A program made the position numbers and the translations under genes. A DNA stretch of 22,883 bases, taken from the IMG/VR virus record IMGVR_UViG_3300034375_008440, positions 1-22,883 of that record. One strand, written 5' to 3'. Position 1 is the first letter of the stretch; each line of letters opens with the position of its first letter. Shown here in pieces: positions 4,995-21,659 of this stretch. The notes beneath the pieces were generated by a model, which ran no database searches, was not told where the DNA came from, and saw only the letters and a list, made by a program, of their open reading frames with translations. The DNA comes from a virus.

Positions 4995-5798
4995 ATGATA
5001 AGTTTAGTTGAAATTTTAAATGAAGCTGTTGGTAAACCTAAAGCTATTATATTAGCAGGTGCGCCTGGAGCAGGTAAAGGATTTATCTTAAGAGGATTAG
5101 ATCTTTCAGGATTAACTACATATAATTTAGATTTAGATTTTGTTCCTTTATTAAAAAAAGCAGGTGTAAGTTTAGATTTAAAAAATGCTACACCTGAAGA
5201 AAGAAGCCAGGCAGCTAAATTAATGAGACAAGCTGCATCTAAATTAAAAGATGAAGATTTACCTAAAGCAATAGCTAGTAGAGAATCATTTATATTAGAT
5301 GGAACAGCAGCATCATTAAAAGCTACTCTTAAATTAAAGGATGAATTAGAAAAGGCAGGGTATGAAGTATTTATGCTTTATGTTTATACAGATTTAGAAC
5401 GTTCATTAAAACAAAACCAAGATAGATTTGATAAATCTGGGGGTGAAGATAGAAGTTTAGCTCCTGCTATTGTGATGCGTACGTGGAATGATGTTACTAA
5501 AAATTACGATGAATATAAAAATGCTTTTGGTAATAATTTTGTATCTGTTTCAAATTTATTAAAAGATGAAAAACTAAAAGATTTAGAATCAATAGTAAAA
5601 AAATATTTAGATCCTTTTAAACCACAAGGAACAAAACCAAAAGATGCTAAAGCACAAGCTAGATCAGATAAAAGAAAAGCTGAGATAAATGCGCAAATTA
5701 AAGCTCTATTAGCTGATGATGGAGTAAAAAACATAATAGATAATTCAGTATCAGCTGAAGAAGCACAATCAAAAATAAAACAATTTTTAGGTAAATGA
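4995..5798 (+). CDS. P-loop kinase (zeta-toxin/PNK-like) with capsid-type leader
   Basis: The 267-residue protein has a Walker A motif GAPGAGKG at residues 22-29, after the hydrophobic strand AIILA. An NLDLDF segment (about 43-48) sits where zeta-toxin and polynucleotide-kinase-like enzymes hold a catalytic Asp. FILDGT and an arginine-containing stretch (QNQDRFDKSGG) resemble a Walker B region and lid. This points to ATP-dependent phosphorylation of a small molecule, nucleotide or nucleic-acid end. Residues 1-11 end in ILNEA, like the leader that sends T4 internal proteins into the prohead. The last 50 or so residues are Lys/Ala-rich and helical. It overlaps the next gene by four bases. The kinase fold is fairly sure; substrate and packaging are inference. 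Confidence 0.7.
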   Translation: MISLVEILNEAVGKPKAIILAGAPGAGKGFILRGLDLSGLTTYNLDLDFVPLLKKAGVSLDLKNATPEERSQAAKLMRQAASKLKDEDLPKAIASRESFILDGTAASLKATLKLKDELEKAGYEVFMLYVYTDLERSLKQNQDRFDKSGGEDRSLAPAIVMRTWNDVTKNYDEYKNAFGNNFVSVSNLLKDEKLKDLESIVKKYLDPFKPQGTKPKDAKAQARSDKRKAEINAQIKALLADDGVKNIIDNSVSAEEAQSKIKQFLGK

Positions 5799-7909
5799 AC
5801 CATTTAACAAGATCTTTATTAGAAGGATTATTAGAAGAAGATAAAAAAGTAGTTGCTCTTTATGGTGGAGGTTTTAAACCACCAATTGGAGGACATTTTG
5901 AAGTAGTAGATGAAGCTTTAAAACAATATCCTGAAATTGATGAATTAATTATATTAGTAGGAGGTGGAGAAAGAAATGGTATTTCACAAGCTGAAGCTAT
6001 TTTAATATGGGAAATTTATCAAGATTATTTACCACCAAAAGTTAAAATTCAACCATCAAAAATGCCAATTGGTGATATTTATAGTTTTGCTAAAAATAAT
6101 CCTCAAGATATTATTTATTGGATAATTGGTAGAAGAGAAGGTGCTGATGATGATAATAAAGATATAATTGATAGAGCAAAAGCACTAAAAAAGAATCCTG
6201 AAAAATATAATAATTTAGATTTAAAAGTTATTACTACCCAAGATGAAAGTATGAGAGGTAGAAATTCTAGGGAAGCAGCTAAAAAAGGTAAATTATATTT
6301 TACCCCATTCTTACCTAAAAAATTATCAAAAGAAGATAAAAGTAAAGTATTTGACATAGTTTCTCCTGTATTAAAAGAAAACGCTACATATTCCCAGAAT
6401 ATAGATTATAAACAGATGATTCAAGATCTAACTGATTATATGATAAAAAAAGGTAGAAATATAGAACCATTACCTAAAGTAGAATTTGTAGATGGTGATT
6501 CAGAAAATGCAAAAGATTTTTTTGGTAAAACAGCATATTATGATCCTAATACTCAAACTATAGTTTTATATACCGAAGGTAGACATCCTAAGGATATAGT
6601 TAGATCATTTTCTCATGAAATGGTTCATCATACCCAATTTTTAGAAGATAGATTAGGTGATGTTCAAACAACTAATACTACTGAAGATGATAATTTAGAT
6701 AAGATTGAACAAGAAGCTAATTTAGTAGGTACAATGACATTTAGAAATTGGACTGATAATATAAAAGAAAAGAAAAATAAAGATCCATTTGGTTTAAATG
6801 CTTATGCTCTTGAATTAGCTCGAGGATTAGAAGAAGGAGATACTTATGAAAAAATGGCTGCTAAAGGGAAAAAAGCAGGTAGTTTAAAACAAGGTACTGT
6901 TAGAAAAAGATTAGGTATTTCTAAAGATAAAAAAATTCCATTATCCTTAATTAATAAAGAAATTGCTCGTTTAAAGAAAATGGATAAAGATCCTGATAAA
7001 AAGGGTGCTCAATTAGGTGATAAAAATCAAAAATATTATAAAGCATTACAATTAGCTAAAACATTAAAAACAACAACTAATATTAATGAATCTGATCCTA
7101 AAAAAGGCACGGGTAAAAAACCTAAAGGATCAGGACGTAGATTATATACTGATGAAGATCCTTCTGATACAGTAGGTATTAAATTTTCAACTAGGCAAGA
7201 TATAGTTGATACTTTAAATAAAACATCATTTAAAAATAAATCACATGCTAGACAATCTCAGATTATTAATTTAATACATCAGAGAGTAAGGGCAGCATTA
7301 GGTAGAACTAAAGATCCTAAGAAAAAAAAGAAATTACAAACTGCTTTTAGCTATATTAAAAAACGTAAAGAAGCATCTAAAGAAAAAACTAAAAGGTTGC
7401 AAGTACAAAAGAAAAAAATAAAAGAAAATATTAATGGAAATTATACTATTTATTCTGATATGGATGGGGTATTAGTTGATTTTGATAAAAGATTTAAAAG
7501 ATTTTCAGATGGAATACCTCCAACAGAATATGAACAAAAGTTCGGTAAAGATAAATTTTGGGAATTAGTTGATGGTGTAGGAGTTAGATTTTGGGTTGGA
7601 ATGGATTGGATGTCTGATGGTAAACAATTGTGGAATTATATTAAAGAATATAATCCTACATTACTATCATCACCTTCAAGATCTAATTATTCTAGAATGG
7701 GTAAAAGAATATGGAGAAAAAGAAATTTACCTTCAACTAAATTAATATTAGCACAAGCTGCAAATAAGCAGAATTATGCAGATCCAGATAGTATATTAAT
7801 TGATGATAGAGAATCAAATGTAGATCAATGGATTAAAGCTGGAGGAATTGGTATATTACATACTGATACAGTTTCAACAATAAATAAGTTAAAAGAATTA
7901 GGTTTATGA
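5795..7909 (+). CDS. Four-part protein: nucleotidyltransferase, HExxH peptidase, basic domain, HAD phosphatase
   Basis: The 704-residue protein joins four regions. Residues 17-190 form an HIGH-type nucleotidyltransferase (NMN adenylyltransferase or cytidylyltransferase-like), with GGGFKPPIGGH at 24-34 and RGRNSREA near the domain end; the first His of the HxGH signature is replaced by Ile. Residues 197-430 hold a zinc peptidase motif HEMVH at 274-278, with Glu305 or Glu307 as possible third ligand. Residues 433-543 are a basic helical domain of a type I associate with T4-like phages. Residues 549-704 are a HAD hydrolase close to 5'-nucleotidases: DMDGVLVD at 555-562 and a double Asp at 670-671. 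The regions are separated by LKE|N (195), INE|S (432) and IKE|N (544), which resemble T4 prohead protease sites. The N-terminus has LLEG and LLEE. It overlaps both neighbours by four bases. Confidence 0.75.
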   Translation: MNHLTRSLLEGLLEEDKKVVALYGGGFKPPIGGHFEVVDEALKQYPEIDELIILVGGGERNGISQAEAILIWEIYQDYLPPKVKIQPSKMPIGDIYSFAKNNPQDIIYWIIGRREGADDDNKDIIDRAKALKKNPEKYNNLDLKVITTQDESMRGRNSREAAKKGKLYFTPFLPKKLSKEDKSKVFDIVSPVLKENATYSQNIDYKQMIQDLTDYMIKKGRNIEPLPKVEFVDGDSENAKDFFGKTAYYDPNTQTIVLYTEGRHPKDIVRSFSHEMVHHTQFLEDRLGDVQTTNTTEDDNLDKIEQEANLVGTMTFRNWTDNIKEKKNKDPFGLNAYALELARGLEEGDTYEKMAAKGKKAGSLKQGTVRKRLGISKDKKIPLSLINKEIARLKKMDKDPDKKGAQLGDKNQKYYKALQLAKTLKTTTNINESDPKKGTGKKPKGSGRRLYTDEDPSDTVGIKFSTRQDIVDTLNKTSFKNKSHARQSQIINLIHQRVRAALGRTKDPKKKKKLQTAFSYIKKRKEASKEKTKRLQVQKKKIKENINGNYTIYSDMDGVLVDFDKRFKRFSDGIPPTEYEQKFGKDKFWELVDGVGVRFWVGMDWMSDGKQLWNYIKEYNPTLLSSPSRSNYSRMGKRIWRKRNLPSTKLILAQAANKQNYADPDSILIDDRESNVDQWIKAGGIGILHTDTVSTINKLKELGL

Positions 7910-8539: not shown

Positions 8540-9451
8540 ATGGCTAAGGACTTTTCATTAACTAAATATTTTAGAGAGCAATATATTAATGAATTTAAAA
8601 GTAATGCTCAAAAAGAAACTAGCGCTATGCGTAGTTCTACTTTCACAGCATATGATGAAGATGGTGAACAACCTTACTTAAATGAAAAAAGTATTGAAGA
8701 TTATAGAAGAGTATCTGCACCTAGAGCTAAAAAAGACAAAAATAATCCTAATTTTTTAAATGTATTTATAGATTATGATATCGGTCCTGGAGGTGCTACT
8801 ATGGCATTTGGTAAAGAAACAATGACAGGTCAAATTAGAAGATTAAGTTCAGAAAGAGCTCGGCTAATAATGAATAATATAGCTGTTATGCTTCAAAATA
8901 AATATGATATAGAAGATATTGAAGTTACAGATTTAGAGAATGGTAAAGTAAGATTATTTGCAGTGTCAGATGATTTTATAGACATGAAAGGTGATGAATT
9001 TGGGGATTTTGGCCTACCAGGTAATTTACAAGAAATAGATATGAATGATCCTGTTTTAGTAAAAATGAGAGCAGCTAAATCAGCAAATAAAAAAGCTGAC
9101 AAAGAAATAGATAATATCAAAAGAATGAACCCAAAAGCAGATAGAAAATCTCTTGATATGATTAAGCAAATAGGTATGTTGCAAAAAGAAAGAGAACAAT
9201 TAATGCGAGATATGGAGCAAGAAGCTGAACCAGAAGGTGGACCTATTGCTGATATGTATGGTGCTAAATTAAATCGTATTGATAGCAAAATTGCTAAATT
9301 AACAGGTAGAAAAGAAATGACTTACAATCAGGCAATAGCAATGGATGAAGGTTCTTGTGGTTATACACCAGATGGAGAACCAAGATCTAAACCAGCAGGT
9401 CCAAATTTAATGGAACTAAAAGAAAAAATATTTAACTCATTAAAAAAATAA
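8540..9451 (+). CDS. Putative internal head or scaffold protein with capsid-type leader
   Basis: The 303-residue protein starts with an amphipathic leader in which FSLTKYFREQYINE ends at Glu18. It closely resembles the leader of the gene at 16152 (FNLHSFYKKQYIAE) and, more distantly, the T4 internal-protein leader ending FIAEA. The middle contains an alpha/beta segment (FLNVFIDYD, then IEVTDLENGKVRLFAVSDDF). Residues 180-265 are charged and look coiled-coil. The C-terminus is the amphipathic helix LMELKEKIFNSLKK. I recognise no enzyme motif. A packaged internal protein or prohead-core component is the best inference. It is preceded by a candidate late promoter and followed by another leader-bearing gene. 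Confidence 0.6.
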   Translation: MAKDFSLTKYFREQYINEFKSNAQKETSAMRSSTFTAYDEDGEQPYLNEKSIEDYRRVSAPRAKKDKNNPNFLNVFIDYDIGPGGATMAFGKETMTGQIRRLSSERARLIMNNIAVMLQNKYDIEDIEVTDLENGKVRLFAVSDDFIDMKGDEFGDFGLPGNLQEIDMNDPVLVKMRAAKSANKKADKEIDNIKRMNPKADRKSLDMIKQIGMLQKEREQLMRDMEQEAEPEGGPIADMYGAKLNRIDSKIAKLTGRKEMTYNQAIAMDEGSCGYTPDGEPRSKPAGPNLMELKEKIFNSLKK

Positions 9452-9497: not shown

Positions 9498-10142
9498 ATG
9501 GCAAACGAATTTAACTACAGAAATTACTTAAAAAACAACCCACTTTTAGCTGAAGCCAAAAAAGATGAGGAAGTTAAAGAAGAGTATAAAAAAGACATGG
9601 ACGAAGGATATAAAAAGGACATGGATGAAGAAATGAAAGCAGATAAAAAATCATCTAAGATGAAACTATCAGAATTTAAAGCTCAAATTAAAGAAAGAAT
9701 TTTAGCTGAAATGTCGGATGATTTAGATGAAGCTGATGCTGTTTCATTTAGAAGACAAAATTCTCCTTCATATACTATGGATGCTGATGGCGGTCCTGTT
9801 AACCCACAACCTCATAAAGTAGGTAAATCTACTGTTGAAGAAATGGAAGACATGGATGAAGAAATAGATAAAATGGATGAGCAAGAAGATGTAGAAGTTG
9901 AAGATAATGAAGATATTAATATTGATGTTGAAAAAGATATCGATATTGATGACGAATCTTCAGAATCAGATATTGAAGTTAAATCTACAGTACCTGGAGA
10001 ATCATCTGATGTATCAGCTATATTAGGTCTTTTAACTAAAGCTCAAGAAAGAGCAGAAAAAATGGGTGATGAAAAACTATTAGATCAAATAGGAAATACT
10101 ATCACATATTATACTAGAGCACACGTAGTAAAAGCAAATTAA
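9498..10142 (+). CDS. Acidic scaffold-like protein with capsid-type leader
   Basis: The 214-residue protein is very rich in Asp, Glu, Lys and Met and should be helical or disordered. Its N-terminus (FNYRNYLKNNPLLAEA) ends in LAE|A at Glu19, like a capsid-targeting leader. A second site, RILAE|M at Glu71, follows a segment (KLSEFKAQIKE) resembling the leader of the gene at 19045. Residues 30-45 hold a tandem YKKDMDE repeat. Residues 110-155 are a long acidic tract alternating Asp with Ile or Val, also found at the C-terminus of the gene at 11422. The last 45 residues look like a folded helical end. Such proteins suit the prohead core (compare T4 gp22, gp67 and gp68), but I do not claim homology. 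Confidence 0.6.
   Translation: MANEFNYRNYLKNNPLLAEAKKDEEVKEEYKKDMDEGYKKDMDEEMKADKKSSKMKLSEFKAQIKERILAEMSDDLDEADAVSFRRQNSPSYTMDADGGPVNPQPHKVGKSTVEEMEDMDEEIDKMDEQEDVEVEDNEDINIDVEKDIDIDDESSESDIEVKSTVPGESSDVSAILGLLTKAQERAEKMGDEKLLDQIGNTITYYTRAHVVKAN
9585..9632 (+). repeat. Two tandem 24-base units encoding YKKDMDE(G/E)
   Basis: Two adjacent 24-base units inside the acidic protein gene differ at four positions. They encode YKKDMDEG and YKKDMDEE. This is a recent in-frame duplication in a disordered, charged part of the protein. Confidence 0.8.
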
Positions 10143-10334: not shown

Positions 10335-11429
10335 ATGCTCAACGAAAAAAAGCTTACTAAAGCAGAACTCGATAAAAGAGAAGATATCATAATGAAAATG
10401 AAAAAAAACAAGCGTGCGCTTGTTGACAAATATGGTAAAGATGCTGAAGCTGTAATGTATGGGCGTGCAACTAATATGGCTAAAAAACAAGCAGAATCTA
10501 TGAAAAATGATAGACTAAGTGAGTTAATTAAAGACGCACTCACAAATCCTGAAAAAGCAGATTTAAATAAAGATGGCAAATTATCTGACTACGAAAAAAC
10601 CAGAGGAAAAGCTATTGAAAAAGCAATGATGAAAGAAACTTTGGATGATGAAGTTTTTGCAATGGCTGATAGAATGGTAGCAACAATGGGTGCTGAAGCT
10701 GTTGTTGATGCAATAGTTAGAGCAATGTCTACTGATGATGCTAAATTATATTTTAGTGCTATAATGAGAGATTATGATATCAATGAAGTAGCAGGATATG
10801 ATAGAAAAGGTAATAAAGTTATGGATTCATCAGATGATACTAAAAGAAGAAAAAGAGGTATTGGAAGTGTATCTTTAAAAGACATTAAAGAGACTATTAA
10901 GCAAATGAGATCTATAAATGAAAAAGCATATCCATTTGATCAATGTCTTGATGATAATGAACCTAAATACGGTAAAAAAGGAGCTGCTAGAGTATGTGGT
11001 TCAATTAGAGCCGCATTTGGTGAAGGAATTAAAGAAGGTTTACCTAAAGGCTATTTCAAGAAAGAATTTGGAGTAGGTAAAAAAAAAAGTCTTAAAGAAG
11101 CAAGCGGTCCCGCAACAATAGAAGACACTGAAAAAGCTGCAAGAAAAGTCGTAGCAGCAATCAAGCTAGAACAACCTGAAGATGATATAAAGGTATCAAG
11201 AGGATTAGAAGAAGGTTCTTTTGATATAGATATAAATGATCGCGCTTATGAAGGAGGATCATATACAGTAGATAGTGATGGAGACATAACATTAGTATCA
11301 ATTAGAAAACCAGGATTTGTTGGTAATTTAAATGATGCCCCAAGTACTATACAAACAACTATGAATGATGTTTTAAATAACTCCCCATCTAAACCAAGAC
11401 CAGTATATAATCCAGAAAATAATGAATAA
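10335..11429 (+). CDS. Modular protein with EF-hand and possible protease-cut segments
   Basis: The 364-residue protein has several distinct segments. Residues 7-58 contain the KAELDKREDII ... YGKDAEAVMYGRATNMAKK type of helical motif seen in many phage proteins. Residues 76-87 are a complete EF-hand loop, DLNKDGKLSDYE, with Asp76, Asn78, Asp80 and Glu87 as calcium ligands. Residues 198-225 hold the YPFDQC ... ARVCGSIRAAFG motif with Cys204 and Cys221. The C-terminal 100 residues look like a small alpha/beta domain. INE|V (151), INE|K (196) and LKE|A (255) separate the segments and resemble prohead protease sites. The stretch before Glu196 resembles the leaders of other genes here. It overlaps the next gene by eight bases. 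Confidence 0.6.
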   Translation: MLNEKKLTKAELDKREDIIMKMKKNKRALVDKYGKDAEAVMYGRATNMAKKQAESMKNDRLSELIKDALTNPEKADLNKDGKLSDYEKTRGKAIEKAMMKETLDDEVFAMADRMVATMGAEAVVDAIVRAMSTDDAKLYFSAIMRDYDINEVAGYDRKGNKVMDSSDDTKRRKRGIGSVSLKDIKETIKQMRSINEKAYPFDQCLDDNEPKYGKKGAARVCGSIRAAFGEGIKEGLPKGYFKKEFGVGKKKSLKEASGPATIEDTEKAARKVVAAIKLEQPEDDIKVSRGLEEGSFDIDINDRAYEGGSYTVDSDGDITLVSIRKPGFVGNLNDAPSTIQTTMNDVLNNSPSKPRPVYNPENNE

Positions 11430-13098: not shown

Positions 13099-14952
13099 AT
13101 GTGTAAATGTGGATGTAATAGCTGTGAAACCAAAAGTACTACGTTAGTACTTAAGGAAAGTAAATTTATACATACTCCTATATCGGAGGGGTTAAAATAT
13201 CATATAGACAATCAAATACCGTTAAGTGAAAATATATATCGTATTGGTTCCAAAGAATATATGAAATTATACACTGAAGCTAGATCATTATATTCTCGTG
13301 GTAAATTAGATGTAAATGAAGCAGATAAATATTTTTTAACAGAAACTCATGTTGGTAGTTTTGGTATGTTTGAAGGTAAAAGAGTACCACTAGATATTCC
13401 TATGATAAATGAAGAAGAAGAATATTATGTAACTGTTAATCGTGGACCTAAAATTGGTAAATCATTAGTAAGATCAGCTGAATCTGATTATGAAGAACCA
13501 AGAATATTTTCAAAAGAAGAAGCTGAAGAATATATTAAACGAGTTAAAAACTCAGGAGCTACACCTGGACAAATAGCCTCATATTGGGTGTCTGATAGAG
13601 ACATGAATAGAATAGATGAAAATGAGGATAAATTATCAAAAATCAAACAAGAACTTGAAGCATTAAGACCAGGTATTAGTTGGATAGATGATATATTTAT
13701 TTCTTCATATGATGGTAGCTTACGAGTTGAATTAGATTATACATTATATCCTAACGAAATAAAACAACTTGCCCAAATTGCTGCCAAATATGGTATGGAA
13801 TTAAAATACATGACAGGTAAAAATGCTTCTTTAGTAAAAAATAAATTAAATGAAAATATTGACACAGGTGATTTTTTAAATAAAAATAGAGATCAAATTG
13901 AATTAGATTTTGGTCCTAGAACATTTAGAATGTTACAAATGCAATTAATGAAAGATGATGAAGCTTTTGTTAGAGATTGGTTAATAGCAAATGGTTATAT
14001 GGAAGAAGAAAAATTACCATTTGAAGAAAATCAATTAAATGAAAAAAAGGAAAAATCTAAACTTTGTAAAAGAGGTAGAGATTATATAGCTGCAAGAAAA
14101 AGAGCAGGTGAAAAATCATCAGCTTATCTATCAGGTAGAGCAGTTAAAGTTTGTAAAGGTTCAATAAAAGGAGCAGGTGGTAAAAAGAAAAAATCATATA
14201 AAAATGAAAATATAGCTCCTAACCATGATGGTAAAGCTGCACCTTATGGATCAGGATATAAAGTATTAGATATAGATAAAATAGCTGAGTCATTAAAAGA
14301 TTGGTTTGAAAAAGAAAATTGGGTAAGAATTAACACATCAGGTAATATAACGGGTGCTTGTGGTACAATGAAAAAAGGTAAAGCTACTACAAGATGTCTT
14401 CCTAAGAAAAAAGCTCAAGCAATGACTAAAGCAGAGCGTAAAGCTACTGTAGCTAAAAAAGTAAGAGGTAGTAAAAAAGGTAAACAATTTGTTTCTGTAA
14501 AAGAAGCTATGGTTGATTATGATTTTTCAAAAGAAGAACTAATCAGAGTTATTAAGCAACTTAAAAGAGGGGCTAGTACTGAAGTAAGTATGATTAAAGC
14601 ATTTGAAAAAGCTTTAGGTAGAAAACTTACAGATGATGAAATTAGAGGGTTTAAATTAAAAGAAGCAGAATTTAGAGGTAAAGAAGTATCTTTAAATAAA
14701 CCTAAAAGAGGTGGTTCTAAAGCATACTATGTTTATGTTAGAGATCCTAAAACTAAAAAAATTAAAAAAGTATCATTTGGTTCAGGTGGATTAAGAGCTA
14801 AAATTAAAAACAAAGATGCTAGAAATGCTTTTGCAAAAAGACATAATTGCGATAAGAAAAAAGATAGAACAAAAGCAGGATATTGGTCTTGTAACTTGCC
14901 TAGATATGCTAAGCAACTAGGTTTAGGGGCTAATATGAATACATTCTGGTAA
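13099..14952 (+). CDS. Large modular protein, Cys-rich N-terminus and several phage domains
   Basis: The 617-residue product starts MCKCGCNSC, a possible zinc site (Cys2, 4, 6, 9). It then carries closely spaced LKE|S (20), ISE|G (30) and LSE|N (44) sites. Residues 100-250 look alpha/beta. LNE|N (252) and LNE|K (315) bracket a helical segment with FGPRTFRMLQMQ. Residues 322-353 hold the CKRGRDYIAARK ... AVKVCKGSIKG motif (Cys323, Cys352). Residues 400-462 form a W-x-x-I ... CG ... KCLPK-like basic domain (DUF6321-like by memory). Residues 541-617 have YVYVRDPKTKKIKKVSFG and a YWSCN ending that I associate with T4-like phages. It looks like a concatenation of small domains, perhaps separated by the head protease. 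Individual functions are unknown. Confidence 0.6.
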   Translation: MCKCGCNSCETKSTTLVLKESKFIHTPISEGLKYHIDNQIPLSENIYRIGSKEYMKLYTEARSLYSRGKLDVNEADKYFLTETHVGSFGMFEGKRVPLDIPMINEEEEYYVTVNRGPKIGKSLVRSAESDYEEPRIFSKEEAEEYIKRVKNSGATPGQIASYWVSDRDMNRIDENEDKLSKIKQELEALRPGISWIDDIFISSYDGSLRVELDYTLYPNEIKQLAQIAAKYGMELKYMTGKNASLVKNKLNENIDTGDFLNKNRDQIELDFGPRTFRMLQMQLMKDDEAFVRDWLIANGYMEEEKLPFEENQLNEKKEKSKLCKRGRDYIAARKRAGEKSSAYLSGRAVKVCKGSIKGAGGKKKKSYKNENIAPNHDGKAAPYGSGYKVLDIDKIAESLKDWFEKENWVRINTSGNITGACGTMKKGKATTRCLPKKKAQAMTKAERKATVAKKVRGSKKGKQFVSVKEAMVDYDFSKEELIRVIKQLKRGASTEVSMIKAFEKALGRKLTDDEIRGFKLKEAEFRGKEVSLNKPKRGGSKAYYVYVRDPKTKKIKKVSFGSGGLRAKIKNKDARNAFAKRHNCDKKKDRTKAGYWSCNLPRYAKQLGLGANMNTFW

Positions 14953-14953
14953 A

Positions 14954-15238
14954 ATGTTTAGATTTAAAATTGACATATTTAATGAAATACCATGGCAAAA
15001 ATTTAGACGCCTACCAGAAATTAAACTTTTACTTTTAAATGAACAAGTAAAAAAATATAATCTTTATATAAATGAACTTACGTATGAACGTAATGTTTAT
15101 TTACATTGGTTAGAAGGACATAAAAAAGGACCTAAAGTTGAAACTACTCCTACCCCACCAGTAGAAGAGGGATTTTTATTACAGGAAAATTTATTTGACT
15201 TACTACAAGAAACAGGAGATAAAATTATAATAACATAA
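14954..15238 (+). CDS. Small unknown protein
   Basis: The 94-residue protein begins MFRFKIDIFNEIPW and is helical and aromatic over residues 1-54. It has a short Pro/Thr-rich linker (about 62-71), then a helix LLQENLFDLLQET. It contains LNEQ and INEL, which match the short cleavage-site pattern, but these are too common to mean much alone. I do not recognise it. It starts one base after the stop of the large modular gene and comes just before the fibre-like gene, so a minor virion or assembly role is possible. Confidence 0.5.
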   Translation: MFRFKIDIFNEIPWQKFRRLPEIKLLLLNEQVKKYNLYINELTYERNVYLHWLEGHKKGPKVETTPTPPVEEGFLLQENLFDLLQETGDKIIIT

Positions 15239-15248
15239 TAACATAACA

Positions 15249-15896
15249 ATGCCAAATTTACCAATTTCAGGATTACCAGCAGGGAGCGCATTAGACGGAA
15301 CCGAATTATTTGCTATTGTGCAAGATGGTGTAACCAAATACACTACCTTAAACGCAATTAATACTAGCACTACCTCCAATTATGGTTTATTTAACCAAAC
15401 AGGTTCATCAGCACCTATATCAGGTAGCACCCACGTTTCAGGTAATTTAATTGGAGGAGGAGTTGGAACACTATCGGTTCCCGCCAATGGCTTTACTAAA
15501 GGAGATGCATACCAAGCTACTTTTTCAGGAGTATTAAATGCTGAAAATAATAAAACACTTCAAATTACAATTAAGACTGATAGTGTAATTTTAGCAGATA
15601 CTGGAGTAATATCTATGCCTGGGATTACTGGCAATAAAAGATGGAGAATGGATGTTGATTTCTCTATTAGAGAAATTGGTGGGACTGGAACTGCTGAAAT
15701 AGCAACTGCAGGCACAATACAATTTAGAACAGATTCATCAGGTAATGTTATAACTGAAATTTTTAGTGATGTTAATAATACAACTTTTGATACTACAATA
15801 AGTAATACTTTAACAGTTGAAGCAGAATGGGGTAGTGGTCCAACTGATTTAAGTTCTATTTATTCTAAGTTATTTACTCTATTAAAAACTTACTAA
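15249..15896 (+). CDS. Fibre-like virion protein
   Basis: The 215-residue protein begins MPNLPISGLPAGSALDGTEL, followed by FAIVQDGVTKYTT. The motif I-S-x-L-P ... L-x-G-T-E-L ... V-Q-x-G-V-T-x-x-T is a common N-terminal module of phage tail and head fibres. The remaining 150 residues are Gly/Thr/Ser-rich beta sequence (GNKRWRMDVDFSIREIG, EWGSGPTDL) that could form a trimeric jelly-roll or knob. Tail fibre, head fibre or decoration cannot be separated from sequence alone. It ends with LFTLLKTY, and its TAATG junction shares one base with the cupin gene. Confidence 0.65.
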   Translation: MPNLPISGLPAGSALDGTELFAIVQDGVTKYTTLNAINTSTTSNYGLFNQTGSSAPISGSTHVSGNLIGGGVGTLSVPANGFTKGDAYQATFSGVLNAENNKTLQITIKTDSVILADTGVISMPGITGNKRWRMDVDFSIREIGGTGTAEIATAGTIQFRTDSSGNVITEIFSDVNNTTFDTTISNTLTVEAEWGSGPTDLSSIYSKLFTLLKTY

Positions 15897-16159
15897 TGCA
15901 TCCATACACTAATCTCGAAACTACAGACAAATACATTATCAGAGAATTTGGTCAAGATATTGATCCTATAGAACTAGTTTGGCATCAAGATAAAGAAGAT
16001 AGATTAGTTGAGGTATTAGAAGGAGAAGGGTGGAAATTTCAAAGAGATAATAATGTACCTGTGGATATGAAAATAGGAGATCGTATATTTATACCCGAAG
16101 GAGAGATACATCGTATTATAAAAGGTACAACTGATTTAAAAATAAAAATAAATGGATAA
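15896..16159 (+). CDS. Small cupin-like protein
   Basis: The 87-residue protein has the pattern of a one-domain cupin. It reads LVWHQDKEDRLVEVLEG, then GWKFQRDN, then MKIGDRIFIPEGEIHRIIKG and LKIKI. The G-D-x-x-x-I-P-x-x-x-x-H-R part is the second cupin motif, with His75 as a candidate metal ligand. The first motif is degenerate, so a full metal site is uncertain. Phages of the T4 supergroup often carry small cupins of unknown role. Junctions of one base upstream and eight bases downstream suggest coupled translation with the fibre-like gene and the leader-bearing gene. Confidence 0.6.
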   Translation: MHPYTNLETTDKYIIREFGQDIDPIELVWHQDKEDRLVEVLEGEGWKFQRDNNVPVDMKIGDRIFIPEGEIHRIIKGTTDLKIKING

Positions 16160-16463
16160 TTTTAATTTACATTCTTTTTATAAAAAACAATACATAGCTG
16201 AAGCATTAGCTAGTGATGTAGATAAAATTGAAATATCTTATACAGATCCAGGATTTCGTTTTTATGGTATGTATCTTTATAAAGATGGTAAAAGAATTAA
16301 TAAAATTAGTTTTATTAAAGATGTAGATGAATATCTTAAAGATTTAGGTATTGATACTGAAATACCAAGAAGATATGATACTGATGTATTAGATAAAATT
16401 GTAGATGAGTTAAAAGAAAAAGGAATTGATGCAGACCACGATGCTGCTATGGACGTAAGTTAA
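16152..16463 (+). CDS. Small protein with T4-like capsid-targeting leader
   Basis: The 103-residue protein starts MDNFNLHSFYKKQYIAEALA. The QYIAEA ending is nearly the same as the EFIAEA ending of the T4 internal head protein leader, and the whole leader aligns with that of the gene at 8540. Cleavage after Glu17 would leave a mature protein of about 86 residues with a small alpha/beta fold (KIEISYTDPGFRFYGMYLYK, then VDEYLKDLGI) and an acidic C-terminus. This is the clearest candidate for a packaged internal protein in the window. The function of the mature part is unknown. It starts inside the cupin gene. Confidence 0.65.
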   Translation: MDNFNLHSFYKKQYIAEALASDVDKIEISYTDPGFRFYGMYLYKDGKRINKISFIKDVDEYLKDLGIDTEIPRRYDTDVLDKIVDELKEKGIDADHDAAMDVS

Positions 16464-16483
16464 ATTAATTAAAATTAAAAATT

Positions 16484-16546
16484 ATGTGTAATTGTCAAGA
16501 ATGTAAATGTGGAACAAGTTGCAAATGCGCTTGTTGCGATTGTTAG
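16484..16546 (+). CDS. 20-residue cysteine-rich, metallothionein-like peptide
   Basis: A short frame from ATG 16484 to TAG 16544-16546 encodes 20 residues, nine of them cysteine (positions 2, 4, 7, 9, 13, 15, 17, 18, 20), in C-x-C, C-x-x-C and C-C patterns typical of metallothioneins. It contains CKCGTSCKC. The start follows an A/T-rich leader like those of neighbouring genes, and a terminator follows 58 bases later, so it would be the last gene of the transcript. The N-terminus of the protein at 13099 (CKCGCNSC) has a similar pattern. Such a cysteine content is very unlikely by chance in this A+T-rich DNA. Expression is unproven; metal binding is the obvious guess. Confidence 0.55.
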   Translation: MCNCQECKCGTSCKCACCDC

Positions 16547-16561
16547 TAAAATAAAAGTATA

Positions 16562-16580
16562 GTCTGATTCATAGCCAGAC
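16562..16580 (+). other. Small hairpin in the untranslated tail
   Basis: GTCTG and CAGAC form a five-pair stem around a nine-base loop, between the cysteine-rich peptide and the terminator. It could protect a transcript end or belong to a short untranslated RNA. It is weak on its own. Confidence 0.25.
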
Positions 16581-16604
16581 GATTGATTAAAATTTTTTAA
16601 GGAG

Positions 16605-16639
16605 CTGTGGCCCAATATTTGGAGCCACAGTTTTTTTTT
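16605..16639 (+). terminator. Rho-independent terminator
   Basis: CTGTGGC (16605-16611) pairs perfectly with GCCACAG (16624-16630) around a 12-base loop, and nine T bases follow. The stem is the most G+C-rich stretch in this region. It separates the small-gene cluster ending at 16546 from the FAD dehydrogenase, whose candidate promoter begins at the last T. Confidence 0.85.
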
Positions 16640-16651
16640 CGTATATTATAA
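16639..16651 (+). promoter_or_regulatory. Candidate non-late promoter element TCGTATATTATAA
   Basis: The 13-base motif starts at the end of the terminator T-run and lies 20 bases before the dehydrogenase start. The same 13 bases are at 18472, before the NadR-like kinase. Placement straight after a strong terminator supports a promoter. Confidence 0.5.
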
Positions 16652-16671
16652 CATATAAACTTAAGTAAAAA

Positions 16672-18180
16672 ATGAGTAAAAAAGTAGTAATTGTAGGAGC
16701 AGGAGTTGCAGGTGTAAATGCAGCAACTAAATTAGTAGACAATAATTTTGATGGTGAAATCACTATTATTGATATGGGTAAAAATCCATATGATAGATTA
16801 CCTGAAGAAGTAATGACAGGTTTTTTAGGAGCAGGTGGTTGGTCTGATGGTAAGTTAACATATCATACAGCAATTGGAGGTCACTTAACTAAATATACTG
16901 GTGATGAAAAAGCAATGGAATTGATGGATCAAGTAATTGAAAATTTTAAACGATTCCATCCTAAACCAGAAGAAGTACAGTGTTCTAATCCAGTTGCAGA
17001 ACCAGATTTTATTAAACCATATTTTGGTTTACGATTATTTCCTGTGTGGCACGTTGGTACAGACTATTTACATGAAATTGGTAAAAATTGGTATGATTAT
17101 TTAGTAGATAAAGGTGTGGAATTTATATGGGAAACTAAAGTATCAGATATAGATTTTGATAATAATAAAGTATATTATCCTAAAGTAGCAGAAATGGATA
17201 GTGCTGGATTACCAGAGGATTTAAGTTGGGTAAATAATAATGTACTAGAATATGATACACTTATTTTTGGTGTAGGTAAATCAGGAATTGATTTTGGTAA
17301 ACAATTAGCTGAAAAATATGAATTACCAACTGAGTCAAAACCAGTACAAATTGGAGTACGTTTTGAAGCACCACAAAAACATTTCCAAAAATTAATTGAT
17401 GTAAGTTATGATTTTAAATTATATCGTAAATTTGAAGATGAAGGTGTATCATTAAGATCATTTTGTACTAATAATAATGCTGCTTATGTAGCTGTAGAAG
17501 AAACATATGGTGATCATAGTTATAATGGTCATGCTAAAAAAGATATGTCATATAGAAATGACATGACTAATTTTGGCATATTAATGGAAGTAAGAGGTAT
17601 TGATAACCCATTTACTTGGTCTCGTGAATTAGTATCTAAAGTACAAAAAGATAGTACTGGTTTATTTTATAGCCCTACAAGAAATCCATCTACAACATCA
17701 GAAGGAGACAACGTATCAGCTATTAAAATTGATGATTTAGAAATCGTTAAAGAAGCATTTCAAGGTTATTATAAATACATTGAAGATTTTATTAATGATA
17801 TGAAAAAAATATTTCCAACTCTTGAAGATGATTGGGGTATTTATATACCAGAAGTAAAATATTTATCTCCTGAACCACTTGTAGATTATGATACATTAGC
17901 ATTAATCGATTATAATAATGTACATTTTGTAGGAGACGCCCTATCAGCTCGTGGTATTACAGTTTCAGGAGCACAAGGTAATTATGTTGCAGAATGGATA
18001 TTACAATGTATGGAAGATGAATTATCATGGGAAGATAACCCAGATGTTCAAGATTTTTTAGAACATGCCGATAAACCAGGATCTTGGTCTGAAGAAGATA
18101 ATAAAATTCATACTGTAGGAGGTTTAACTAATGATAAAGAAAAATCATTTATAAAATTTCAAAATAAAATAAACAAATAA
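16672..18180 (+). CDS. FAD-dependent dehydrogenase (COG2509-like)
   Basis: The 502-residue protein begins with a Rossmann dinucleotide-binding motif, VVIVGAGVAG (residues 5-14). Near the C-terminus it has FVGDALSARGITVSGAQG (about 419-436), the second FAD-contact motif of the glutathione-reductase-like superfamily. In the middle, RSFCTNN and a later GHAKKDMSYRNDMTNFGIL segment recall the uncharacterised FAD-dependent dehydrogenases of COG2509. Length is normal, there is no frameshift, and there is no signal peptide, so it should be a cytoplasmic flavoprotein. It begins a separate transcription unit after a terminator. This is an unusual gene for a phage and looks like an acquired metabolic gene; substrate unknown. 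Confidence 0.8.
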   Translation: MSKKVVIVGAGVAGVNAATKLVDNNFDGEITIIDMGKNPYDRLPEEVMTGFLGAGGWSDGKLTYHTAIGGHLTKYTGDEKAMELMDQVIENFKRFHPKPEEVQCSNPVAEPDFIKPYFGLRLFPVWHVGTDYLHEIGKNWYDYLVDKGVEFIWETKVSDIDFDNNKVYYPKVAEMDSAGLPEDLSWVNNNVLEYDTLIFGVGKSGIDFGKQLAEKYELPTESKPVQIGVRFEAPQKHFQKLIDVSYDFKLYRKFEDEGVSLRSFCTNNNAAYVAVEETYGDHSYNGHAKKDMSYRNDMTNFGILMEVRGIDNPFTWSRELVSKVQKDSTGLFYSPTRNPSTTSEGDNVSAIKIDDLEIVKEAFQGYYKYIEDFINDMKKIFPTLEDDWGIYIPEVKYLSPEPLVDYDTLALIDYNNVHFVGDALSARGITVSGAQGNYVAEWILQCMEDELSWEDNPDVQDFLEHADKPGSWSEEDNKIHTVGGLTNDKEKSFIKFQNKINK

Positions 18181-19696: not shown

Positions 19697-20091
19697 TGAA
19701 ACAAAAAATAGCTTATATATTTGTTATTATTTTTTGGTTATTTGTTTCTAATTTATTTGCACAAGATAAGATAGTAGAAATACCAGAAGTAGAATTAGAA
19801 GGATTTTTTTTAGCTCTTGATACATTAGAATATCAAGATTCTATTAAGGATATTTTAATTAAAGATTTAGAAACACAAGTATTAAATTATAAATTATTAT
19901 CTAACCAAGATAGTTTATTAATTGAGTTTCAAAAACAACAATTTATTCTACAAAAACAACAAATAGATTTACATTTAGATAGATTAAAAGTTGTAGATAG
20001 ATGGTATCATAAACCTTGGGTTGGATTTGTAGGTGGAGCAGCAACTACAATACTAATGATTCATGTAATAGATTATTCTTTACCTAAATAA
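19696..20091 (+). CDS. Exported coiled-coil protein with C-terminal membrane segment
   Basis: The 131-residue protein starts with a signal peptide: Lys at 2 and 4, a hydrophobic core, and SNLFAQD with likely cleavage before Gln23, as is common in Bacteroidota. Residues 50-98 are helical and rich in Leu, Gln and Asp and probably coiled-coil. A hydrophobic segment near the C-terminus (WVGFVGGAATTILMIHVI, about 108-125) would anchor it in a membrane. A short exported coiled coil with an anchor is the layout expected of a spanin-like envelope-disruption protein. No lipobox Cys is present, and no endolysin is in the window. Its single-base junctions with both neighbours couple it to the terminase. 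Confidence 0.6.
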   Translation: MKQKIAYIFVIIFWLFVSNLFAQDKIVEIPEVELEGFFLALDTLEYQDSIKDILIKDLETQVLNYKLLSNQDSLLIEFQKQQFILQKQQIDLHLDRLKVVDRWYHKPWVGFVGGAATTILMIHVIDYSLPK

Positions 20092-21659
20092 TGGCAGATT
20101 TAAAGAAAATAATAAGACAAGAATATATAAAATGTGCAAAAGATCCTGTTCATTTTATGAAAAAATACTGCTACATTCAACACCCACAACGAGGTAGAAT
20201 TCAATTTAGTTTGTATCCATTTCAAGAAAAAGTATTAGGTCTATTTAAAGACAATCCTTACTCAATAATTCTTAAATCAAGACAGTTAGGTATTTCAACA
20301 TTAACTGCAGGTTATTCTTTATGGATGATGACATTCCATAAAGATAGAAATATACTTTGTATTGCAACTAAACAAGACACAGCTAAAAACATGGTTACAA
20401 AGGTAAAATTCATGTATGAAAATTTACCTTCATGGTTAAAAGTTGATGCAATGGAGAATAATAAATTAACATTGCGGCTTAATAATGGATCTCAAATTAA
20501 AGCAACATCTGCAAGTAGTGATGCTGGTAGATCAGAAGCAGTATCTCTTCTATTAATTGATGAGGCAGCTTTTATTGATAATATTGGAGAGATTTGGGCT
20601 TCAGCTCAACAAACATTAGCAACTGGAGGTGGATGTATTGCTTTAAGTACACCTTATGGTACTGGTAATTGGTTTCATCAAACCTGGACAAGAGCAGAAT
20701 CACAAGAAAATGAATTTTTACCTATTAAATTACCTTGGTATGTGCACCCAGAACGAAATCAAGAATGGAGAGATAGACAAGATGAATTATTAGGTGATCC
20801 TAGGATAGCAGCTCAAGAGTGTGATTGTGATTTTAGTACTTCTGGTGATATAGTGTTTTACTCTGAATGGATTGAATTTCTCCAACAAACTACTATTAAA
20901 GATCCAATAGAAAGAAGAGGTGTAGATCAAAATTTATGGATTTGGGAAAATGCAGATTATTCTAGAGAGTATATGGTTGTAGCTGACGTTGCAAGAGGTG
21001 ATGGAAAAGACTTTTCAGCATGTCATGTAATGGACATTGAGACAAATACTCAAGTAGCAGAATATAAAGGACAATTACCACCTAAAGAATTTGGTTATTT
21101 TTTAACTGGGCTAGCTACAGAATTTAATAATGCTATGTTAGTAGTTGAAAATGCTAATATAGGATGGGCTGCTTTAGATGCAATTAGAGAAAGAGGATAT
21201 AGAAATTTATATCAATCACCAAAATCAGATCAATTAACAGCAGAATCATATTTAAGAGTATATGAAGGCAACTCTGAAATGGTTCCTGGTTTTACAATGT
21301 CAATGAGAACAAGACCTCTTTGTATTAATAAATTTAGAGAATTTGTTGGTGATAGATCAGTAACTATTCAATCAAAACGTTTATTAGAAGAGATGAAAGT
21401 ATTCATTTGGAGAAATGGAAGACCAGAAGCTCAAAGTGGTTATAACGATGACTTGGTTATGTCATTTGGGATTGGTATGTTCCTACGTGATACTTCATTG
21501 AAGTTTCAACAACAAAGTTTAGACGGAGCTCGTGCAGCATTAGGTAATATACAAAAATCAAAAACCTCACATAGTGGAGGATATAGTGCTAACAGTGTTC
21601 AAAATCCTTATACAATGAAAATAGGAGGAAAGGATGAGGACATTAAATGGCTATTATAA
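20091..21659 (+). CDS. terL: Terminase large subunit, T4 gp17-like
   Basis: The 522-residue protein is the ATP-driven motor and nuclease that packages DNA into the prohead through the portal. In the ATPase part, KSRQLGIST at residues 62-70 is a deviant Walker A: the T4 SRQLGKTT lysine is Ile here, with a Lys at the start of the loop. LLIDEAAF gives Walker B Asp157 and catalytic Glu158, and STP at 186-188 is the coupling motif. The nuclease part has VADVARGDGKD with Asp299, VVENAN with Glu353, and YNDDLVMS with Asp453 and Asp454, the acidic triad of the RNase H-like fold. The protein is complete. The portal gene follows after a late-type motif. Confidence 0.93.
   Translation: MADLKKIIRQEYIKCAKDPVHFMKKYCYIQHPQRGRIQFSLYPFQEKVLGLFKDNPYSIILKSRQLGISTLTAGYSLWMMTFHKDRNILCIATKQDTAKNMVTKVKFMYENLPSWLKVDAMENNKLTLRLNNGSQIKATSASSDAGRSEAVSLLLIDEAAFIDNIGEIWASAQQTLATGGGCIALSTPYGTGNWFHQTWTRAESQENEFLPIKLPWYVHPERNQEWRDRQDELLGDPRIAAQECDCDFSTSGDIVFYSEWIEFLQQTTIKDPIERRGVDQNLWIWENADYSREYMVVADVARGDGKDFSACHVMDIETNTQVAEYKGQLPPKEFGYFLTGLATEFNNAMLVVENANIGWAALDAIRERGYRNLYQSPKSDQLTAESYLRVYEGNSEMVPGFTMSMRTRPLCINKFREFVGDRSVTIQSKRLLEEMKVFIWRNGRPEAQSGYNDDLVMSFGIGMFLRDTSLKFQQQSLDGARAALGNIQKSKTSHSGGYSANSVQNPYTMKIGGKDEDIKWLL

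Follow-up and report, generated by a model that had tools for sequence, protein, structure and literature searches.

Previous studies have reported that the T4 prohead protease gp21 cleaves after L/I-x-E (PMC9026906), and mutagenesis of the capsid-targeting sequence of T4 IPIII has indicated that residues 4 and 7 mainly serve targeting and residues 8 and 10 serve processing (PMC9026906). Replacement of the P1 Glu by Asp is reported to block processing in T4 (PMC9026906). T4 packages single proteins (IPI, IPII, IPIII and Alt), and each of them carries a leader. Head cargo of the giant phages phiKZ, 201phi2-1 and SPN3US has likewise been described as cut at Glu-specific x-x-E sites (PMC9026906, PMC10052503); in SPN3US, every cut identified outside the protease itself removes an N-terminal propeptide (PMC10052503). 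Polyvalent proteins are multidomain chains of mosaic architecture in which a zincin is common, and they are likely delivered with the DNA. In the sections of the article drawn on here, the authors draw a polyprotein analogy, processing is credited to embedded peptidases, and no prohead-protease site at domain joints was seen (Iyer et al. 2017, PMC5512222).

In the present study, we analysed the IMG/VR virus fragment IMGVR_UViG_3300034375_008440 (22,883 bases), the whole of which is referred to as the window. The fragment was assigned to a T4-like phage because it carries a T4-type terminase large subunit gene (20091-21659), its gene order is common to the T4-like Flavobacterium phage vB_FspM_immuto_2-6A (immuto), and gp23 capsid and gp21-type protease genes were found in a 93%-identical relative (G003/L003). 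An initial annotation had proposed that one 704-residue chain of the window, if a prohead protease cuts it, is a polyprotein that delivers separate enzymes in the head. The exchange of modules at the sites, the leaders, and the gp21-type protease and gp23 motif of relatives lent this reading strong inferential support. Most likely, the product of the ORF is head cargo in the form of a polyprotein that the prohead protease cuts.

Compared with the T4 internal proteins, the system is alike in a leader of about 10 residues, whose functional positions are clear in the kinase leaders, in the hydrophobic-x-Glu cut motif, and in the T4-like capsid and protease genes of relatives. In contrast to T4, one leader precedes a multi-module chain with predicted cuts between the modules and with shuffling. 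The motif also resembles the x-x-E cuts of the giant phages, whereas a chain of separable retained modules like the present one is not described for SPN3US in PMC10052503. The traits listed above for polyvalent proteins would apply here as well, and several unrelated domains (six modules) indeed lie in one chain near late genes, with the terminase downstream. The joints, however, bear a prohead-protease motif, unlike the embedded-peptidase processing of polyvalent proteins, and the modules (NT, HAD, BAS1, BAS2 and cupredoxin) form a different set from that in the sections of the article drawn on (PMC5512222). The best reading is that the system would work like T4 internal proteins joined in a chain, and that it resembles polyvalent proteins, as presented in those sections, with a different cutter (PMC5512222). 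No description of such a system was found in the open-access literature searched.

The ORF was confirmed as single and uninterrupted. Comparison with relatives divided its product into a leader and six modules, whose coordinates are listed in the table below: a nucleotidyltransferase (NT), a metallopeptidase (MP), a short peptide, two basic modules (BAS1 and BAS2) and a HAD module. Every unit except the last terminated in hydrophobic-x-Glu (LLE, LKE, IKE, LEE, INE and IKE).

Features of the window and the evidence for them (a slash marks a predicted cut; residues are those of the 704-residue chain)
Feature	Coordinates	Strand	Evidence or remark
Zeta-toxin-like P-loop kinase, leader MISLVEILNE/AVGK	4995..5798	+	PF06414, E 7.9e-19; directly upstream of the polyprotein
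Leader MNHLTRSLLE/ (residues 1-10)	5795..5824	+	Capsid-targeting-sequence-like; first cleavage-like site at its end
NT module (residues 11-195), putative cytidylyltransferase-superfamily nucleotidyltransferase, end LKE/N	5825..6379	+	Foldseek; motifs
MP module (residues 196-325), HExxH zincin-like metallopeptidase, end IKE/K	6380..6769	+	Motif; weak Pfam M91
Small peptide module KKNKDPFGLNAYALELARGLEE (residues 326-347; 22 residues), end LEE/G	6770..6835	+	Split from MP in relatives
BAS1 basic module (residues 348-432), end INE/S	6836..7090	+	56 unrelated contexts upstream; 54 contexts downstream
BAS2 basic helical module (residues 433-544), end IKE/N	7091..7426	+	125 distinct contexts
HAD module (residues 545-704) and stop, 5'(3')-deoxyribonucleotidase-like	7427..7909	+	PHROG 2643
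Likely cargo polyprotein, leader-like N-terminus MAKDFSLTKYFREQYINE/, shared EQEAEPEGGPIADMYG module	8540..9451	+	Module sharing
Likely second polyprotein (617 aa), small modules KLCKRG... and GKAAPYGSGY... common with the first type	13099..14952	+	Sequence comparison

The initial annotation had named LKE/N at 195, INE/S at 432 and IKE/N at 544 as joints; the alignments of relatives end there, which identified them as real module joints. It had missed LLE/G at 10, IKE/K at 325 and LEE/G at 347, which bring the number to six. Its single basic domain proved to be two basic modules (348-432 and 433-544), and a separate peptide module was recognised at 326-347. The ends of the relatives' alignments clustered at 193, 345 and 430-434 and at 195-196, 347, 432-433 and 536-547, and their position at the motif joints was well beyond chance. 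A raw count of [LI]xE in the chain (12, compared with 6.4 expected from shuffles) was too weak as evidence by itself. A second candidate site, LLE/E, was observed at residue 14, and further [LI]xE motifs lie within folded modules at 50, 73, 618 and 701, so that accessibility must decide which are cut.

The three enzyme-like regions proposed initially were broadly right. The NT module gave Foldseek matches to phosphopantetheine adenylyltransferase (PPAT), nicotinate-nucleotide adenylyltransferase (NadD) and ATP sulfurylase, and it carries GGFKPP at 25 and GGHF at 32, which identify a cytidylyltransferase-superfamily fold. Where the usual HxGH motif begins with His, the window chain has Ile and its relatives have Thr or His, so that the nucleotidyltransferase activity is putative. 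A structural match to a cyanophage S-RIM2 cytidyltransferase-like protein was also noted; sequence comparison did not bear on it further, and the main text of the published cyanophage virion proteomes (PMC3037559) held no usable detail. The MP module contains HEMVHH at 274 and matched Pfam M91 weakly (E 0.0017, below the cut-off); it occupies changed positions in the chains of relatives, as expected of a relocated module. The peptide KKNKDPFGLNAYALELARGLEE, which falls into module clustering families 8 and 13, was parted from MP by inserted modules in four relatives (L010, L012, L024 and L035). The HAD module matched PHROG 2643 (E 2.8e-24) with invariant DMDGV and IDD motifs, and its structure matched HAD phosphatases in Foldseek. 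Among isolate phages, no match was obtained for BAS1 and a single weak, partial one for BAS2; a fold search with BAS2 also gave no match (best E 1.3). A scan of uncultured phages with BAS2 recovered at least 573 relatives. No relative of the 704-residue chain was found in the bacterial or archaeal genome contigs searched.

To place the sites on a structure, we used an AlphaFold model of the chain folded from a collinear-row alignment (A2); a mixed alignment of module fragments (A1) was rejected before folding, as the fragments were misplaced in it. The mean pLDDT was 79.7, and the NT, MP and HAD domains were confident. Values below 50 were observed at 195-201, 327-364 and 425-456, where the low confidence within 327-456 may partly stem from the thin alignment there. 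Most joints fell in such low-confidence linkers. The site at 544 closes a long predicted helix (508-544), directly before the HAD domain and without a clear linker. A helix was predicted at 3-12, covering most of the leader, and BAS2 was all-helical with a disordered basic N-tail. Thus, the predicted sites were placed in linkers or at a domain edge, not within folded domains, and this check did not refute the polyprotein reading.

The arrangement of the modules varied among relatives in IMG/VR, and the orders NT-MP-BAS1-BAS2-HAD, NT-BAS2-BAS1-MP-HAD, NT-BAS1-MP-BAS2 and NT-MP-BAS2-BAS1 were found. Extra modules occurred at the joints, including a plastocyanin-type cupredoxin (PF00127, E 2.6e-16; about residues 505-595 of the chain in L008 and 451-557 in L006), a piece resembling a zinc ribbon, another HExxH protein and several others. 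BAS1 was 95-98% identical (92-94% in DNA) among loci in which NT was only 50-60% identical, so BAS1 has probably moved recently between loci. Alignment breakpoints at 85% identity or more were collected from 159 non-redundant chains. [VILMF]xE stood at 71% of the 520 breakpoints, compared with 12% of random positions in the same proteins, the motif having been widened from L/I to V/I/L/M/F after the data were seen. No P1 residue other than Glu was enriched, and at P3 a strong signal came from hydrophobic residues only; charged or polar classes were not enriched, and Gly/Ala/Pro was slightly raised (1.6-fold). A first control with other large proteins of the same loci gave a similar enrichment (0.55-0.57), which would have weakened the case, but these proteins proved to be further predicted polyproteins that share modules. 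In 388 large proteins outside the module network, only 4 breakpoints were found, 0 of them at a site. For the grouping of modules, single-linkage clustering of over-cut fragments lumped nearly all of them, and a stricter clustering was used instead.

The joints of individual modules gave the same picture, with the limit that the contexts counted are partly interdependent. Upstream of BAS1, Glu occupied P1 in 56/56 unrelated contexts and V/L/I/M/F occupied P3 in 54/56, with P2 and P4-P10 weakly conserved or unconserved; downstream of BAS1, Glu was present in 51 of the 54. BAS2 occurred in 125 distinct contexts. The joint Glu was encoded by both GAA and GAG, which indicated that it is held as an amino acid. 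As had been anticipated if the sites matter, conservation at the joints was highest in the sites themselves, and their neighbours varied.

Module copies that are free-standing or open a chain start with a leader of about 10 residues closing in hydrophobic-x-Glu. The motif was present in all 101 kinase leaders, 57 of 58 HAD leaders, 18/18 BAS2 leaders and 45/48 NT leaders. The kinase leaders were conserved at residues 4 (Leu in 95/99), 7 (Leu/Ile in 97/99), 8 and 10, which are the targeting (4, 7) and processing (8, 10) positions of IPIII. NT leaders fitted less tightly, with a hydrophobic residue at position 4 in 83% and at position 7 in only 52%; the window leader has Leu at 4, Ser at 7 and the processing motif SLLE/G at 10. 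No protease or capsid gene lies within the 22.9-kb window fragment, and Peptidase_S77 (PF03420) was detected in 8 of 16 related records, among them those of the 93%-identical relative and immuto. The capsid protein N-termini of these related phages bear hydrophobic-x-Glu too, for example LVTE/T, which we take from alignment to T4 gp23 to be the expected propeptide end.

In immuto, a cultured phage, the products immuto26A_183 (907 aa) and immuto26A_184 are syntenic with the window chain, and NT, MP and HAD are common to both phages. Several sites coincide with the edges of modules, and downstream there is a gene for a prohead protease. Unlike in the window, the HAD is encoded separately and preceded by a leader, as in other distant relatives, extra N-terminal modules are present, and BAS1 and BAS2 were not found. 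The existing annotation of immuto26A_183 is only NadR-like adenylyltransferase. The same site pattern was observed in this 907-aa chain (14173-16896 of record L080) and in an 841-aa chain (21048-23573 of L080, immuto26A_192). A strict leader pattern occurred at 13% of immuto ORF starts, compared with 4.8% of internal stretches, and was clustered at 100-120 kb.

Other genes of the window may belong to the same cargo. The kinase upstream of the chain is a candidate injected protein; in one relative (L189), a kinase resembling it occurs as an internal module. The ORFs at 8540-9451, 9498-10142, 10335-11429 and 13099-14952 begin with leader-like sequences or contain several hydrophobic-x-Glu sites, and some of their small modules recur in large proteins of other phages. 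Based on these features, the phage probably encodes several cargo polyproteins. A peptide of about 20 residues, GKAAPYGSGYxxVNE, present in 13099-14952 and in many relatives, is shuffled as its own unit. Between the cargo genes and the terminase lies a 502-aa FAD/NAD(P)-dependent oxidoreductase-like protein (16672-18180).

The conserved joints could also be read in other ways. If the product stayed uncut as a multidomain protein, the motifs would be remnants of the leaders of once-separate genes, with recombination occurring there since linkers tolerate it; the leaders of free-standing genes do terminate in this motif, and the joints would therefore retain it after fusion. Such fossil leaders are disfavoured, however, because internal joints lose P7 and P4 (hydrophobic in 34% and 12%) yet keep P3 (98% hydrophobic) and P1 (100% Glu), which suggests selection on processing. 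This pattern argues for one leader per chain with cuts between the modules. Moreover, modules diverged to 65% retained the Glu, sites were also present at module C-termini, and an uncut multidomain enzyme would be expected to have joints without a conserved protease motif, whereas hydrophobic-x-Glu was strongly enriched. We regard an uncut chain as improbable.

A chain that is cut need not be cut by the head protease. The embedded HExxH metallopeptidase might process the joints itself, as proposed for phage P1 DdrB, and the zincin is a frequent module for which such a role has been proposed in the sections of PMC5512222 drawn on here. The same joints were nevertheless found in chains without an MP match (for example L113, L117 and L129), and they carry the head-protease motif, which is common to capsid protein N-termini and to the leaders of single-module genes; self-processing therefore seems very improbable. 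Cutting by gp21 would also fit a core or scaffold role, in which the fragments fill the prohead core and are degraded and expelled like T4 gp22 and gp67. T4 core proteins are cut by gp21 into several pieces that mostly exit the head (PMC9026906), and several of the present modules are small and basic. Conserved NT, MP and HAD enzyme motifs and a cupredoxin (PF00127) would be unexpected in a throw-away scaffold, and we give this role hardly any credence.

Under the favoured reading of a prohead-protease polyprotein, we infer cleavage, packaging, ejection and enzyme activities as follows. The N-terminal leader would dock the chain on the prohead core, as the leader of a T4 internal protein does, and a gp21-type protease would cut after hydrophobic-x-Glu at 10, 195, 325, 347, 432 and 544 in head maturation. 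The head would then hold a nucleotidyltransferase, a zincin metallopeptidase, a 22-residue peptide, two basic proteins and a deoxyribonucleotidase, all of which would leave the head together with the DNA and act early, as infection begins. Since each module bears its own cutting site, modules could be gained, lost and reordered by recombination without loss of delivery. With less assurance, we lean towards a broader, combinatorial system, in which many polyproteins per genome would draw on a common stock of tens of exchangeable modules, comprising enzymes, metal proteins, basic proteins and short peptides and bounded by protease sites; protease specificity would define the evolutionary unit, and one leader would deliver a set of effectors.

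Provided that the site grammar is correct, the modules that are injected could be predicted from sequence alone, together with their precise ends and how they mature, across a very large number of uncultured marine T4-like phages. If the reading is true, a single gene would suffice to fill the head with many separate proteins, which would represent a natural design for delivering several proteins in a phage head, and the recognition motif of a virus protease would set the recombination units of a protein family.
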